Of a DNA stretch of 20,961 nucleotides, positions 1 through 4,950 are shown in pieces. A program made the translations under genes and the position numbers. The notes under the pieces were generated by a model. That model had not been told where the DNA came from, made no database searches, and saw only the letters and a program-made list of their open reading frames with translations. Source of the stretch: a virus; IMG/VR virus record IMGVR_UViG_3300025141_008896, positions 1 through 20,961 of that record. One strand, written 5' to 3'. Within the stretch, counting starts at the first letter, position 1. Every line of letters begins with the position of its first letter.

Positions 1-332
1 CCCGATTGTTCTTTTCGAGAAGCGGTGTCCCTTAAAGCGGTAGTTGCTGTAGCAGTAACATCCTTTCTCCTTTTGGGGTCAGGTCCTGGGTTTTTCTTTG
101 AATGAGACTCAATATCGGAAGCAGCTTGACGATAAACCTTAGCACTTGCAATATCTTTGGCTGCTCTTTGTCCGTGACCATATGCACTTATTGATTTACC
201 TGCTGCTTCCCTTCTGGAATACTCCCCTTGTCTACCTTTAGTTCCGTGGAGTTTTCTTCCTTTGGTCCTAGCACGGCTTTCAGGGCTCCTTGTCTCTGTT
301 AATATATTATAAATTCTTTCGTATGTATTCAT
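1..332 (-). CDS. Basic protein with capsid-targeting-like N terminus (partial, runs off left edge)
   Basis: Reading the minus strand from an ATG at 332-330 gives about 110 residues with no stop before the window edge, so the C terminus is missing. The start overlaps the stop of the upstream gene by one base (TAATG). The protein begins MNTYERIYNILTE and then becomes a hydrophilic, basic, Ala/Ser/Thr/Arg/Lys-rich chain with no hydrophobic core, membrane segment or recognisable fold. Residues M1, N2, Y4, R6, Y8, L11 and E13 are identical to those of its neighbour at 332-559. The pattern resembles the capsid-targeting peptide of T4 internal head proteins (M-K-T-Y start, then [LI]-x-E before the gp21 cleavage point). 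I infer an internal or packaged virion protein. The reading frame is sound; the function is unproven. Confidence 0.72.
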   Translation of the reverse strand, partial: MNTYERIYNILTETRSPESRARTKGRKLHGTKGRQGEYSRREAAGKSISAYGHGQRAAKDIASAKVYRQAASDIESHSKKNPGPDPKRRKDVTATATTALRDTASRKEQS

Positions 333-559
333 TACTTCCCCCTTTGCTGTCGGTATGTACCCTTTGTTTGCCTTTCGTTTTCTGTGTTTGCTTCCTTTTT
401 GTTGGCTCGATTCCTTGCTGCTTTAGTTTTCTCAGAAGCTCTAGTAGGTTTTTTGGGTTTTCTCTCTCCCGCGTGTTCGTGCTGACTCCAGAAATCTTTA
501 AAGGCTTCTATATCTACACTTTCAATTAACAATTTATACATTCTTTTATAATTATTCAT
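332..559 (-). CDS. Small basic protein with capsid-targeting-like N terminus
   Basis: This 75-residue protein starts MNNYKRMYKLLIE and continues into a strongly charged tail rich in Lys, Arg, Glu, Asn and Gln that is probably disordered and could bind nucleic acid. It lies 5 bases after the stop of the Gly/Ala-rich gene and overlaps the next gene by one base, so it belongs to the leftward operon. The upstream bases hold only a weak ribosome site (GGAT), which suggests coupling to the preceding gene. The L11-I12-E13-S14 sequence fits the [LI]-x-E/[AGS] cleavage pattern of T4-type prohead protease. I do not recognise a named family. An internal head protein is an inference from the N-terminal motif and its repetition in the next gene. 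Confidence 0.68.
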   Translation of the reverse strand: MNNYKRMYKLLIESVDIEAFKDFWSQHEHAGERKPKKPTRASEKTKAARNRANKKEANTENERQTKGTYRQQRGK

Positions 560-564
560 AGTTT

Positions 565-1209
565 TTATCCAAATATACTTGAGATGGCATCCTTTGCTTT
601 GTCGTAATCATGAGACACTCCCGAAGATATCTCGTCGGCATCATGAACTATAGGTGCGGTATCTACATGAACAGTTACGCCTGCTTTTACTCCAAGTACC
701 AAAGCTAAATCGCCACCGACATGAGCCGTAATAACTCCGTGTCTATTCTCATCGAGAGTACCACTAAAATGAGCACCTAGTTGATCACCAACACTAGTTC
801 CTACTGTTGCACCAACATTGGTGGTCTTACTACCTACCGTAGTCGATGCTTTAGCACCAACAGAAGAGCCTATTGATGCCCCTGCTGCTACTGATGCCCC
901 CCGAGATCCTATACTTCCTGTTGCGTGTTCTTGCGCTCCTGTGCTTGCATAAACACCAGCTTTACTAGCGACACCTACCCCATATGCTTGCGCTCTGCTA
1001 GTAACACCCGCCTTAGCAGTGAGCATTGCACCTGCTTTTTCTTGACCAGAAGCTTGACCCCCTACATCTCTAGAAGTAGCTGACTCATACAGCCTTGCAG
1101 ATGTGGCATATTGGTCCGAAACCCCTCTAGTAACTGTATCACTACCCGAATCGGTTGCTGTTGCTCCGAAGTTTCCATCTTTATACTGTACCCCTAATTT
1201 ATGTGTCAT
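565..1209 (-). CDS. Gly/Ala/Ser/Thr-rich repetitive protein, unknown function
   Basis: This 214-residue protein starts at an ATG preceded by a good ribosome site (AAGGAGA, complement of 1219-1225, spacer 9). Much of its length is low complexity, dominated by Gly, Ala, Ser, Thr and Val with few large hydrophobics. From about residue 75 to 145 there are recurring G-A/S-x-V-G units, the kind seen in glycine-zipper proteins or in repetitive beta-structured virion proteins. The last 60 residues are more normal, with a hydrophobic stretch (around GGDLALVLGVKAG) and an acidic end. No signal peptide or catalytic motif is visible. Its neighbours are a two-span membrane protein and two head-targeting-like proteins, so an internal virion or membrane-active protein is possible. 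No family is recognised. Confidence 0.7.
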   Translation of the reverse strand: MTHKLGVQYKDGNFGATATDSGSDTVTRGVSDQYATSARLYESATSRDVGGQASGQEKAGAMLTAKAGVTSRAQAYGVGVASKAGVYASTGAQEHATGSIGSRGASVAAGASIGSSVGAKASTTVGSKTTNVGATVGTSVGDQLGAHFSGTLDENRHGVITAHVGGDLALVLGVKAGVTVHVDTAPIVHDADEISSGVSHDYDKAKDAISSIFG

Positions 1210-1231
1210 TTAAGTAATTCTCCTTAAGTTT

Positions 1232-1642
1232 TTATGATTTATCTTTCTTGTCTGGATCCTGGTGACTGCTATTCCCATTTTCTCCAGCGACGATGGATCT
1301 AAGGTTAGTTCCAATCATCGTGATAAGTAGCGTTAGTATTGACGATACTACGCTAATTTCTGTTGATGGGATATACTGAATTGCACCAAAAAATCCCCCA
1401 CAGAGTAGCAATAAATAGAGAGGCCCAAAAACAGCTATGTGCTTAGAAGCAGCCTCTTTTGCGCTCATTTGGAGCTTTAGTTTAGCAAGTTCTAGTTTAG
1501 CTTCTTCTCTTGCTTTAGCTACTATTGCTTTGTACCTTTGAGCGGCCTCTTTAGCTTCTTCCTTCCTCATCTTTACAGCAGACGCTGTATCTTTAACTAT
1601 AAATTGAGTTTGTTTTTGTGCATCATTTATATTATCCATCAT
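1232..1642 (-). CDS. Coiled-coil membrane protein with two transmembrane segments (holin-like topology)
   Basis: This 136-residue protein has three parts. Residues 1-65 form a charged Ala/Lys/Glu/Arg-rich helix with heptad-like spacing, likely a coiled coil. Residues about 68-92 and 95-118 are two hydrophobic segments separated by a short PSTE turn. The end is a hydrophilic tail closing in DPDKKDKS. The start ATG at 1642 overlaps the stop of the upstream gene in an ATGA, and a second ATG follows at once (MM). Two spans with both ends on one side and a charged C terminus resemble class II holins, but the long N-terminal helix is unusual for a minimal holin and it could instead be a virion or membrane-anchoring protein. 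No endolysin is visible in the window to support lysis. Confidence 0.72.
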   Translation of the reverse strand: MMDNINDAQKQTQFIVKDTASAVKMRKEEAKEAAQRYKAIVAKAREEAKLELAKLKLQMSAKEAASKHIAVFGPLYLLLLCGGFFGAIQYIPSTEISVVSSILTLLITMIGTNLRSIVAGENGNSSHQDPDKKDKS

Positions 1643-2142
1643 ACTTTACCCTCCCAGCCTGTTCCCCCAGACCGTTTTTCTTTTCTTCCTGCCTTTTTAA
1701 ATCTCTTTGCTAATGCCTTACGCTTAGGTGTGCAAGTCTTTGCACTCATAGGAGTACAGAACCCTTTATGTGCAGGGTTTACTGCCCCTTGAATCCAATC
1801 TTTTTCTACGACAAGTTGTTCTATTAGTTTATTTGTCCAGTCCATCTCAGTTCCCGCTGTTATCCCTAGCCTTCTTTTTACTAGGACATTTGTTGCTCCC
1901 CCGCCCAATGTACCTGCTGTTTGTTGTTGTTTCATCCTGAGAGCATTCTTTGCTTTTTGGTTAGGGGTTTCGAACCCTACATTACTGGCTCTTTGTGTGC
2001 TTCTTTTTCCTGCGGACAAGAAATCCTTAGGATCCCTCTCCCTTTTCCTCTTGGTAGATAATGCCCCTACTGTTCCTATTTCTTGTAAGGTCTTTCTTAC
2101 TTGTTTAGTGTATGAGAAGTGTTTTTTACTAACTTTTGGCAT
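1639..2142 (-). CDS. Basic protein with C-terminal CTP-x5-CTP phage motif
   Basis: I place the start at the ATG at 2142, not further upstream. It has an excellent ribosome site (GGAGG, complement of 2149-2153, spacer 6), and the longer reading would run antisense through the polymerase gene. The product is 167 residues, very basic, with a probably disordered N-terminal two-thirds (KRKRER, QQQ, GGG). The C-terminal 50 residues hold W116-I-Q-x-A-V-N-P, then C129-T-P and C137-T-P, then a Lys/Arg-rich helix (RKALAKRFKKAG). I recall similar W-I-Q...CTP...CTP...KALA tails in unrelated phage proteins, but cannot check this here. The paired cysteines could bind metal or form a disulfide. It is the first gene of the leftward operon. 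Its function is unknown. Confidence 0.75.
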   Translation of the reverse strand: MPKVSKKHFSYTKQVRKTLQEIGTVGALSTKRKRERDPKDFLSAGKRSTQRASNVGFETPNQKAKNALRMKQQQTAGTLGGGATNVLVKRRLGITAGTEMDWTNKLIEQLVVEKDWIQGAVNPAHKGFCTPMSAKTCTPKRKALAKRFKKAGRKEKRSGGTGWEGKV

Positions 2143-2165
2143 CAGAATCCTCCATGGGGGTCTGT

Positions 2166-2193
2166 TATATATAGCTATGCTTACTGTAGACAA
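2166..2193 (-). promoter_or_regulatory. Possible promoter for the leftward operon
   Basis: Read on the minus strand, TTGTCT (complement of 2188-2193) is followed after 16 bases by TATATA (complement of 2166-2171). It lies upstream of the GGAGG ribosome site and ATG of the 167-residue gene at 2142, and inside the first codons of the divergent polA ORF. The matches to the sigma-70 consensus are partial (4 of 6 at -35), and the AT-rich TTATATATAG could also serve the rightward direction. The position between divergent genes is the main support. Confidence 0.3.
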
Positions 2194-2653
2194 CCCGAAA
2201 AATTTTGATTGGGCAAACATGGCCCTCTCTGACTGTTGTGAAGGAAATGCGATGGATGCGTATTTTACTTTGAAGTTATTTGATTTAGTAGAAGGGAAAC
2301 TAGATGATATAGGTGTTCTGTCTTTTGTTGATAAGATATTGTCTAAATCCCTTGAAACCTTTGCAGAAATGGAGTATGAGGGGCTGTTGGTAAGCAAGGA
2401 CCGTCTCGCTACGTTGGGGAAGCAGCTAAAAGAATTAACTTTGAATCAAGAGGATTCTTTATACTATTTTGAGCAAGTGAATAAGACGGACAACCTAGCA
2501 TCTAATAATGATTTGATTGATATTTTTTATTTAAGGGAAGGGGGTTTTGAGTTTTATCCTCCTGATAAAACAGCAAAAGGGTCCCCCTCCGTTTCTGCCC
2601 CTACCTTAAAGATTTTACTTGAACAGATTAATGAGGAGTTAGTTAAGAGATAA
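2177..2653 (+). CDS. polA: DNA polymerase I family, N-terminal fragment (exonuclease remnant plus thumb base)
   Basis: From the ATG at 2177 this gives 158 residues. Residues 15-40 (ending NAMDAYFTLKLFDLV) match the exo III region of the PolA 3'-5' exonuclease, with D27 as the metal-binding Asp, although the usual Tyr four residues before it is Gly. Residues about 50-80 (LETFAEMEYEGLLVSKDRL) match the PolA segment that enters the polymerase domain, and the GSPSVSAPTLKILLEQI segment matches the KTKKGxxSTxxxxLxxL part of the thumb. Exo I and exo II are absent because the gene begins directly beside the divergent leftward operon. The frame stays open upstream to 1997, but that part is antisense to the 167-residue gene and has no PolA motif. 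It likely pairs with the next ORF. Confidence 0.75.
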   Translation: MLTVDNPKNFDWANMALSDCCEGNAMDAYFTLKLFDLVEGKLDDIGVLSFVDKILSKSLETFAEMEYEGLLVSKDRLATLGKQLKELTLNQEDSLYYFEQVNKTDNLASNNDLIDIFYLREGGFEFYPPDKTAKGSPSVSAPTLKILLEQINEELVKR

Positions 2654-3777
2654 TGAGTGCAAAGTGGAAACATAGGGACGAAGGAAAAAAGATTAGTAAG
2701 GGCGTTATTAAGGCTAAGTCTACAGAAGAGCTTAGAACTGCGTCTAAGTTTATAAATGGTCTTTTGGGTCTTAGGAAAGCAGAAAAGCTCCAGAAAACAT
2801 ATATTCATGGCACTAAGAATGCTTTAGAGTACAACGATAGCCAAAGGCTATATGTGGATTATCGGTTAGATGGCACAGCTACTGGGAGACTCTCTTGTGC
2901 TGCTTATAATGCCCAAAAACCGATGGGGGTGTCTTTTCATACCCTTCCTAGAGAGACTAAAACTAATATACGCAGTATGTTTGTAGCAGAAAAAGGACAA
3001 GCTTTTATTACTGTAGATTATGCAGCTATGGAGTTGCGTGTTCTTGCTCATATTGCCAAGGAAAAGAGTATGCAACACGCCTTCAAGTCTGGGCAGGATT
3101 TGCATACCTATACTGCCAAGCTTCTCTTTAGTAAGGATACTATTACCAAGGAGGAACGACAGATAGCGAAAACTGTTTCTTTTCTTATTGTATACGGAGG
3201 TGGAGCGTTTAATCTAGCTGAAACCATGGGCATTTCCATGGACAGAGCAAAAGAGATCATTAAAAATTACCAAAGGGTGTACCCAGGTATTTTTAAATAC
3301 ATGGAGTTTATAAATGAGTTTATTAAAGATAACGGGTTTGCTTATACTATATTCGGTCGCAGGCGCAACTTATCTGATGTTCGCAGCCAAGATCGTTCGG
3401 TCATTAATAGGGCATTAAGACAGGGGTTAAACTTTACTATTCAAAGTGCTGCTTCTGATATTCTTTTGTGTGGCTTGATCGGGGTGTCTCAACGCTTTAA
3501 AGAGGAGTCTTTGGATGCAAAGGTTGTAGCCACCGTGCACGACAGTCTGGAGATTATATCTACCGAGAAAGATCTTTCGAAATGCTTAGAGATCGTCTAT
3601 GATGAGTTAGTCGAGTACCCCCACCTTCGAAAACTGTTCGGAATTAACTTTGAGGTGCCTCTATCTGTAGATGTGGAGGTAGGCCGCTCTTTTGGGGACG
3701 GCATTCCTGTGTCTTTTGCTGAAGGCATCCCTACAAATATAAAAGAAGTATTCGCGTATCTTAATGAAAGTTATTAG
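2653..3777 (+). CDS. polA: DNA polymerase I family, polymerase domain (palm and fingers)
   Basis: This 374-residue ORF carries the whole family A polymerase core. A TATGRLS motif follows the KTYIHG segment. Motif A is D122-Y-A-A-M-E127-L-R. The O-helix reads R169, K173, F177, Y181-G-G, corresponding to E. coli R754, K758, F762 and Y766. Motif C is V-H296-D297-S, where most family members have VHDE. Phe at the 762 position is the bacterial state, as opposed to the Tyr or Leu of many viral PolAs. The start ATG overlaps the stop of the preceding fragment (TAATG), and a stop sits in its own frame just upstream (2644-2646), so it is a separate ORF. It probably associates with the upstream fragment to replicate phage DNA. 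Confidence 0.93.
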   Translation: MSAKWKHRDEGKKISKGVIKAKSTEELRTASKFINGLLGLRKAEKLQKTYIHGTKNALEYNDSQRLYVDYRLDGTATGRLSCAAYNAQKPMGVSFHTLPRETKTNIRSMFVAEKGQAFITVDYAAMELRVLAHIAKEKSMQHAFKSGQDLHTYTAKLLFSKDTITKEERQIAKTVSFLIVYGGGAFNLAETMGISMDRAKEIIKNYQRVYPGIFKYMEFINEFIKDNGFAYTIFGRRRNLSDVRSQDRSVINRALRQGLNFTIQSAASDILLCGLIGVSQRFKEESLDAKVVATVHDSLEIISTEKDLSKCLEIVYDELVEYPHLRKLFGINFEVPLSVDVEVGRSFGDGIPVSFAEGIPTNIKEVFAYLNESY

Positions 3778-3961
3778 ATTTTTAAAGGCTGCATGGTGTT
3801 GGGTTATGGGAGGGTGTAAAATTTCTCTAACATCCCACCAGCGGAGGCAGATTTGTGAAGACTGTGAACATCAGAAAGAGGGTATTTGTTTGGTTTGTGG
3901 TTGTCTTCTGTCAATGAAAACTAAAATGGATACTGAAAAATGTCCAATTGATAAATGGTAA
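3764..3961 (+). CDS. Small Cys-rich zinc-binding-like protein (DUF6171-like)
   Basis: This 65-residue protein overlaps the end of polA by 14 bases and the next gene by 7. It has an amphipathic, Trp-containing N terminus (residues 1-16) followed by a cysteine-rich part: C31-x2-C34, C42-x2-C45-x-C47 and C60-P, ending in a KCPIDKW motif. The order of a short hydrophobic helix, CxxC, CxxCxC and a terminal CPxxKW resembles what I remember of small phage and bacterial proteins of the DUF6171 type; this was not checked by search. The cysteines probably bind one or two zinc ions. The role is unknown. Its place between polymerase and recombination nuclease suggests a replication accessory, but that is only context. 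Confidence 0.75.
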   Translation: MKVIRFLKAAWCWVMGGCKISLTSHQRRQICEDCEHQKEGICLVCGCLLSMKTKMDTEKCPIDKW

Positions 3962-4950
3962 AAACACTAATCCTTGGGGATATTCATATCTCTAATAAAG
4001 ATGAAGCTTTAAGGCAAGCGCAAATTGATTGTGTTGCTAAAATTTTTAAAGAGGTAAAGCCTGATGAGGTGATTCAGCTTGGAGATTTCTTAGATTTTAG
4101 GAAGCCTTCCCCAGAAGCTCTTCTAGCTGCTAAAAGTATCATTGATTTTTGGAAAGAAAAAGCTTCCGTAGTTATTCTTAGGGGGAATCATTGTGCAAGC
4201 ACTAAAGCTGATGACGGCATAACTGCCCTTAGTGTATTTGAGCATGAAAAGGTAGATATAATTACTGATCTTGAAGTTGATCACCAAAAAAAGCGTGTAT
4301 ACATTCCCCATTATGAAAACGAAAAACTTATTACAACCGCTCTGCACAAATGCCCTAAAGATTATACAATATTTGGTCACTTCGGTTATTATGGTTGTCT
4401 TAATTCCGTTGGTGATTATGATTTTAGTATTAACCTTGATAGCTTTAGGAATGATACTGTTCTGGGTCACATCCACAGACATAATGAAAGAGTTTTTGAG
4501 TGTGATGGAAAAGAAAAAAGAGTTCTAATATTAGGCACTCCCTATACTACAAATTTTGGTGAATCTGGTAAACAGAATTACTATGGTGTTTTAGAAGATG
4601 GGAAAATTGAATTACATGAAGTTACCCATGGGCCAAGACACCTAACTATATGTAATAAAGATGTTTCCTCAAATTTGGAGATGATTAATGATGATAATTA
4701 CTGTACTTATTTGAGGATCTTTTTAAATCCAGGCGAGGCGCAGGTTAATTTGGACGGGATAAACGCTCATTCAGTAGATGTTAAGTATTCTCAAGCTTTT
4801 GATGAAGAGGTAATATCAAATTATATTCCTTCACGAAATTTATTTAAATTAAATGATGTGATTATTGAAGATTACTTGGAAGCTGCTAACTCTTCTATAA
4901 GTAAAGAAAAATTGTTGACGGGGTATAATTTACTCAAATATGAAGATTAA
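3955..4950 (+). CDS. Mre11/SbcD-like nuclease subunit (T4 gp47-like)
   Basis: This 331-residue calcineurin-like metallophosphoesterase shows the motifs in order: D9-x-H11 (LGDIH), G43-D44 (LGDFLD), G77-N78-H79, G141-H142 and G171-H172-I-H174. These bind the two metal ions of the active site. The residue after GNH is Cys rather than the more usual Asp or Glu. Length and motif spacing fit T4 gp47 and SbcD. With the gp46-like ATPase encoded next, overlapping by 11 bases, it should form the nuclease complex that resects double-strand ends for recombination-dependent replication and may degrade host DNA. The start ATG overlaps the preceding gene by 7 bases, implying translational coupling. Confidence 0.92.
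   Translation: MVKTLILGDIHISNKDEALRQAQIDCVAKIFKEVKPDEVIQLGDFLDFRKPSPEALLAAKSIIDFWKEKASVVILRGNHCASTKADDGITALSVFEHEKVDIITDLEVDHQKKRVYIPHYENEKLITTALHKCPKDYTIFGHFGYYGCLNSVGDYDFSINLDSFRNDTVLGHIHRHNERVFECDGKEKRVLILGTPYTTNFGESGKQNYYGVLEDGKIELHEVTHGPRHLTICNKDVSSNLEMINDDNYCTYLRIFLNPGEAQVNLDGINAHSVDVKYSQAFDEEVISNYIPSRNLFKLNDVIIEDYLEAANSSISKEKLLTGYNLLKYED

Follow-up and report, generated by a model that had tools for sequence, protein, structure and literature searches.

A 13-residue tag at the start of small basic proteins in uncultured marine phages is probably a capsid-targeting propeptide, which would be cut after Glu13 (E13) and would load the proteins behind it into the prohead; we put the probability of this reading at roughly 0.77. 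The reading builds on what can be seen directly in the sequences, namely the conservation, modularity and exact boundary of the tag, the basicity of the bodies that follow it, and a prohead protease and T4-like head genes in related contigs.

Tag-bearing genes in the window and in related contigs

The window, meaning the whole stretch of DNA that was analysed (20,961 bases), is an entire IMG/VR record (IMGVR_UViG_3300025141_008896) and a genome fragment. Its plus strand carries a replication module with a family A DNA polymerase, a gp32-like SSB and a DnaB-type helicase, together with SbcC/SbcD-like and ribonucleotide-reductase-like ORFs recognised by inspection. A minus-strand cluster lies at the left end, and its last ORFs within the window are 332..559 (75 aa, complete) and 3..332 (110 aa, incomplete, continuing past the window end), which overlap by one base in TAATG. 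Both begin with a class-A tag of 13 codons and a predicted cut after E13: MNNYKRMYKLLIE (521..559, minus strand), detected by the tag regular expression and profile, and MNTYERIYNILTE (294..332, minus strand), detected by both and by swap comparison. As the initial annotation had described, these tandem ORFs have a common N terminus with L-x-E at positions 11–13; 7/13 residues are identical (M1, N2, Y4, R6, Y8, L11 and E13). The tags end in L-I-E/S and L-T-E/T, and L/I-x-E is a feature of T4-type CTS-bearing internal proteins. The first is followed by a low-complexity basic body with its stop codon (332..520, minus strand), the second by a basic body beginning TRSPESRARTKGRK (3..293, minus strand), which is incomplete at the window end and carries other tags in contigs G001 and G020. 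No sequence relatives of the 75-aa ORF were found.

The third tag of the window, the class-B sequence MDWTNKLIEQLVVE (1804..1845, minus strand), is internal, with a predicted cut before KDWIQGAVNP; it stands between the modules MPKVSKKHFSYTK... and DWIQGAVNPAHKGFCTPM... of a two-module ORF (1639..2142, minus strand). As context only, 1232..1642 (minus strand) encodes a protein with two TM helices and a weak match to phrog_1544, and genes similar to it adjoin tagged genes in G004, G010 and G018. Between this gene and the tagged ORFs, 565..1209 (minus strand) encodes a Gly/Ala/Ser/Thr-rich protein of 214 aa, which matched no family.

The tag regular expression was applied to the first 12 sequences, with 20 codon-block shuffles of the set and the reversed sequence as controls. 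It found 19 starts, comprising both window ORFs and 17 in G004, G005, G010 and G011, and had zero matches in the shuffles and in the reversed sequence. A profile scan of the full set gave ~95 starts against 0.4 per shuffled set; both tag profiles were trained on set members, so these counts are not independent of training and the regular expression is the cleaner test. The 13-residue similarity of the tagged ORFs is far above chance. Further contigs were recruited by two degenerate DNA scans over 2.9 million viral contigs. The window and 19 other contigs hold 82 distinct tag-bearing starts, 57 of class A (consensus MNSYERIYNLLTE) and 25 of class B (consensus MNWQNKIYESLTE); some are nested inside longer ORFs, 72 ORFs being left without the nested ones, and start assignment comes from our own ORF scans rather than a trained gene finder. 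With 8–12 tagged proteins apiece in the richest contigs, the "at least two" of the initial annotation was an understatement. In G004, the locus (L005) was fetched with the 3..332 protein, of which only the first 18 residues match; here each ORF of a tandem array (25..4240) starts with MNxY[ED][RK][IVL]Y..L.E or near it, and terminase and portal genes lie a few kilobases downstream.

Used as a query, the tag had no match at E 10 in cultured phages and mostly chance matches in bacterial genomes, the exception being a phage contig in a Prochlorococcus single-cell assembly. This 130.6-kb contig (G011, QCKN01000003.1) lies within the assembly of Prochlorococcus sp. AG-409-P03, a match that may reflect infection or adsorption. 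A scan of 36 kb of the single-virus record AG-345-E15 found no tags.

Anatomy of the tag and its exchange between bodies

Class A (n=57) has Y4 in 56/57 tags, R/K6 and I/L/V/M7 in 57/57 each, Y8 in 48/57, L11 in 51/57 and E13 in 48/57, while class B has E13 in 20/25; the few tags without E13 include LLEG and ILGG. At position 13 the information content is 3.4 bits; it drops to 0.83 at position 14 and stays at ~0.6–0.8 further on. Residue 14 is variable (E, A, G, M, R and others), and this lack of a small-residue preference at P1' counts against cleavage here, although phiKZ-type proteases have no such preference either. AlphaFold, at low confidence, places a helix at residues 3–12 and a break at 13–16.

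Five cases were found in which one body carries different tags, with homology breaking exactly between E13 and residue 14. Ahead of the body TRSPESRART, the window has MNTYERIYNILTE, G001 has MNYTNAYVNKLVE and G020 has MNWQERVYGCLQE; the tag before the body HGADVFHKKLGNAG is of class A in G010 and of class B in G026; and DTPSKTEVSVKKALGW is preceded by MKAYEKIYRFLTE in G010 and by the 12-residue MSWKNTLLSLLE in G018. The tag of the body RSNPQLDYILKS is N-terminal in G010 and internal, without Met, in G006. The DWIQGAVNP module belongs to a gene that the window and G018 share; at the same place before it, the former has a class-B tag and the latter a class-A-like one. Across swap pairs the DNA of the tag is 36–62% identical and the following 39 nt are 72–92% identical, while the 12 upstream residues reach 0–8%. 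Identical bodies also recur between contigs, and near-identical tags stand on unrelated bodies. The DWIQ...GYCTPM module, looked for on its own in cultured phages, was not found there.

Met-less internal tags were found between modules (DNTNSYDRIYNLLLE in G009, DNTNSYQRVCDILLE in G006 and DASYGRLYSLLVE in G018), and a further one, GTYLERVFNLLVE in G010, precedes a DUF6321 domain. Since these tags lie inside ORFs, they are protein elements, and a pure translation-start signal is excluded.

Head genes of the relatives and alternative readings

An S77 (PF03420, T4-gp21-type) prohead protease is encoded by G001, G007, G008, G010, G011, G013 and G018, a list that takes in G001 and every one of the four tagged contigs that reach 70 kb. 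H85 and S140 of T4 gp21 are invariant in an alignment of gp21 with the proteases of six relatives. Absence of such a protease had been set beforehand as grounds for refutation, and in the relatives this test does not refute the tag reading; the window, a fragment without head genes, is too short for its protease to show up, and the protease is for that reason known from the relatives only. G007 and G008, whose polymerase is 82% identical to that of the window, both have the protease, and no tagged gene was found in these two fragments; G001 has the protease and the 3..332 body at 84%. The relatives have the gene order three small ORFs, protease, scaffold, capsid protein, comparable to T4 67-68-21-22-23, and their capsid proteins are 30–32% identical to T4 gp23. 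In six of them, the conserved capsid domain is immediately preceded by [LM]xE (LQE, MNE, MDE, LNE, LDE). The scaffold protein starts with MSKFDSISQLLPE, which aligns in register with MNSYERIYNLLTE, and scaffold N-termini rank at the 91st–99.5th percentile for tag similarity (558 untagged proteins). The protease and the three small neighbouring ORFs mostly have an early [LIV]xE and are otherwise unlike the tag, the tag similarity of the three small proteins being, apart from this motif, not above background. In G013 the protease ORF (L060:8700-10217) is extended at its C-terminus by a long basic stretch that includes a tag-like NTYAALKGLLLED and may amount to a targeting or cargo segment of the protease itself.

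DUF6321 occurs in ~500 cyanophage and pelagiphage records. In P-HM1 and P-TIM68 it makes up the C-terminal portion of a longer protein encoded close to the terminase gene, in S-SSM7 it lies inside a 994-aa protein ('T4-GC 119'), and in pelagiphage HTVC033P it is a stand-alone gene starting MAKTPAW. The S-SCSM1 protein that contains it is annotated 'virion protein', and the depositors of that annotation report mass spectrometry of S-SCSM1 virions (PMC9602691). The domain, which starts AW.[RK]K, has a Glu a few residues ahead of it in S-SCSM1 (VSE/GAAW), AG-345-E15 (VDE/AKSAAW), P-HM1 (VSE/EAW), S-SSM7 (IDE/AAAW) and S-PRM1 (NE/SAAW). The cyanophage 'T4-GC 119' proteins resemble polyproteins of basic modules (WFKGSKSKDG, CWDGY, AW.RK/DUF6321; L130:998-3982, L131:1141-1842, L132:1476-2759, L134:2687-4240), several with x-x-E directly before them, and are candidate prohead-protease substrates. 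No paper on DUF6321 or on the Prochlorococcus single cell was found in the literature library searched.

An uncut tag that directs its proteins elsewhere than the prohead, such as to the membrane, the replication site or a host protein, would agree with the unrestricted residue 14 and with the two-TM protein gene within the same clusters. Conservation and recombination both end sharply at E13, however, the same genomes encode an S77 protease, the scaffold N-terminus is tag-like and the DUF6321 family includes an annotated virion protein in S-SCSM1, which together make this an unlikely alternative. The cleavable, T4-like head-targeting tag proposed in the initial annotation is well supported by computation, in its modularity, its boundary after E13 and the protease of the relatives, with further evidence from the scaffold register and the virion annotation of a DUF6321 protein in a cultured cyanophage.

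It is less probable still, and by some distance, that the common start acts in the nucleic acid, as a translation-initiation signal, a promoter or an early-codon bias, rather than as a protein tag. The first eight class-A codons are conserved at the DNA level, with TAC for Tyr4 in 47/56, TAT for Tyr8 in 42/48 and AAC for Asn2 in 40/50 (genome-wide, TAC 35% and AAC 34%), and in several contigs a conserved leader, CTATATAAcTATATG, stands ahead of the first gene of the array. The early-codon bias can be put down to descent of the tags from a common ancestor, though, and the bias in the first half of the tag fits such descent. A nucleic acid signal would also have to explain Met-less tags deep within ORFs, E13 codons divided between GAA (27) and GAG (21), L10 and L11 likewise of many synonymous codons, conservation that stops right at a protease-type motif, and a class-B tag with the same residue pattern in other residues and codons. 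The leader (CTATATAAcTATATG, or CTATATAA[CT]TATATG) lies directly before the first tagged gene at G010 47612, G011 129367, G013 72377 and other array heads, with GGGACTCCTA repeats upstream of it in several contigs, and is possibly a promoter; no pattern of the T4-type late promoter TATAAATA was found around the tagged arrays. An ordinary paralogous family that kept its N-terminus while the bodies drifted would produce tandem arrays, short ORFs and low-complexity bodies, but is the least probable reading of all, given bodies that bear tags of different classes and are better conserved in their DNA than those tags, identical bodies across contigs, and near-identical tags on unrelated bodies.

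Proposed packaging route and comparison with known systems

By BLAST, the bodies behind the 82 starts form ~43 families; a short N-terminus is common to these otherwise unrelated proteins. Every body is net positive; the median net charge per 100 aa is +15.3, and that of untagged ORFs is −1.7 (n=382, 60–300 aa; Mann-Whitney p ~7e-36, inflated by relatedness). With 25% K+R, the bodies may serve to condense DNA or to balance charge. When 72 tagged proteins were scanned for domains, phage families and defence systems, only single matches at E 0.003–0.007 came up, taken as noise; a PDB search gave none. As the bodies are basic and of low complexity, with no convincing domain or defence match, DNA-associated internal proteins fit better than effectors, and the suggestion of host-takeover effectors in the initial annotation is unsupported. 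Anti-defence roles are possible, with no match pointing to them in the scans of the 72 proteins.

Under the capsid-targeting reading, docking, cleavage, packaging, ejection and the DNA-binding role are the steps that we infer. The tag would probably form an amphipathic helix with Y4, I7/Y8 and L10/L11 on one face, by which newly made proteins would attach to the prohead's scaffold core; the S77 protease would then cleave behind E13 and release the body. Docking on the scaffold and removal after E13 are proposed by analogy with the T4 CTS, whose residues 4 and 7 serve targeting and whose residues 8 and 10 control processing, with L/I-x-E as the motif behind which gp21 cuts (PMC9026906). The leader is the only shared part of the T4 internal proteins (PMC12373910), whose lysines contact DNA phosphates (PMC3012670). 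The strongly basic, low-complexity body would stay beside the DNA inside the head and probably accompany it into the host. Many different bodies would be served by interchangeable tags, and strung modules would be cut apart at internal tags inside the prohead. More tentatively, and in our view somewhat short of an even chance, this may be a general tag-and-cut cargo system of marine T4-superfamily phages, in which interchangeable propeptides, N-terminal or as internal linkers, gather around a dozen basic DNA-binding modules in the prohead and the protease cuts the polyproteins into a protamine-like set of internal proteins, the cyanophage 'T4-GC 119' proteins being an untagged version.

The T4 CTS serves as a tool to load foreign proteins into phage heads, and CTSs are known from few proteins of one phage group. 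The sequences described here point to CTS logic at scale in uncultured marine phages, and natural tag swaps mark its boundary residue. With such a tag, internal head proteins could be recognised by sequence in phages that resist culture, dozens of 'hypothetical' ORFs as well as DUF6321 would gain functions open to testing, and new, possibly orthogonal packaging tags would become available.

On our best reading, the marine tag would work like the CTS of the T4 internal proteins (IPI, IPII, IPIII; gp21 processing) and differ from it in sequence, number, modularity and cargo. Like the CTS, the marine tag would be a short N-terminal propeptide on otherwise unrelated proteins, and the two agree in an aromatic residue at 4, hydrophobic residues at 7 and 8 and an L/I-x-E cut motif, in phages with a T4-type head module and S77 protease. 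The T4 consensus MKT[FY]xEF is absent from the marine tags, however, which have only the aromatic 4 and hydrophobic 7/8 in common with it. The marine tag, MNSYERIYNLLTE or MNWQNKIYESLTE, is three residues longer than the T4 IPIII CTS, and marine contigs carry up to 8–12 tags against four MKT[FY]xEF starts in T4. Internal Met-less copies and swaps between bodies are further differences, and the marine bodies are strongly basic and of low complexity, whereas mature T4 IPI is a compact folded protein.

The head propeptides of the giant phages SPN3US and phiKZ (cut at A-x-E or S/A-x-E) are processed, as proposed for the marine tag, by a gp21-lineage protease that cuts after Glu with little other preference, and many internal or ejected proteins are processed; the identical N-terminus of SPN3US gp53 and gp54 is akin to the shared marine tag. 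These propeptides are mostly longer, with another motif residue at P3, and we found no array of tagged small basic ORFs described for these phages. In phage P1, an N-terminal sequence of DarB suffices to bring the protein into the head, but it spans ~30 residues of one 250-kDa protein, and the Dar proteins have no shared consensus.
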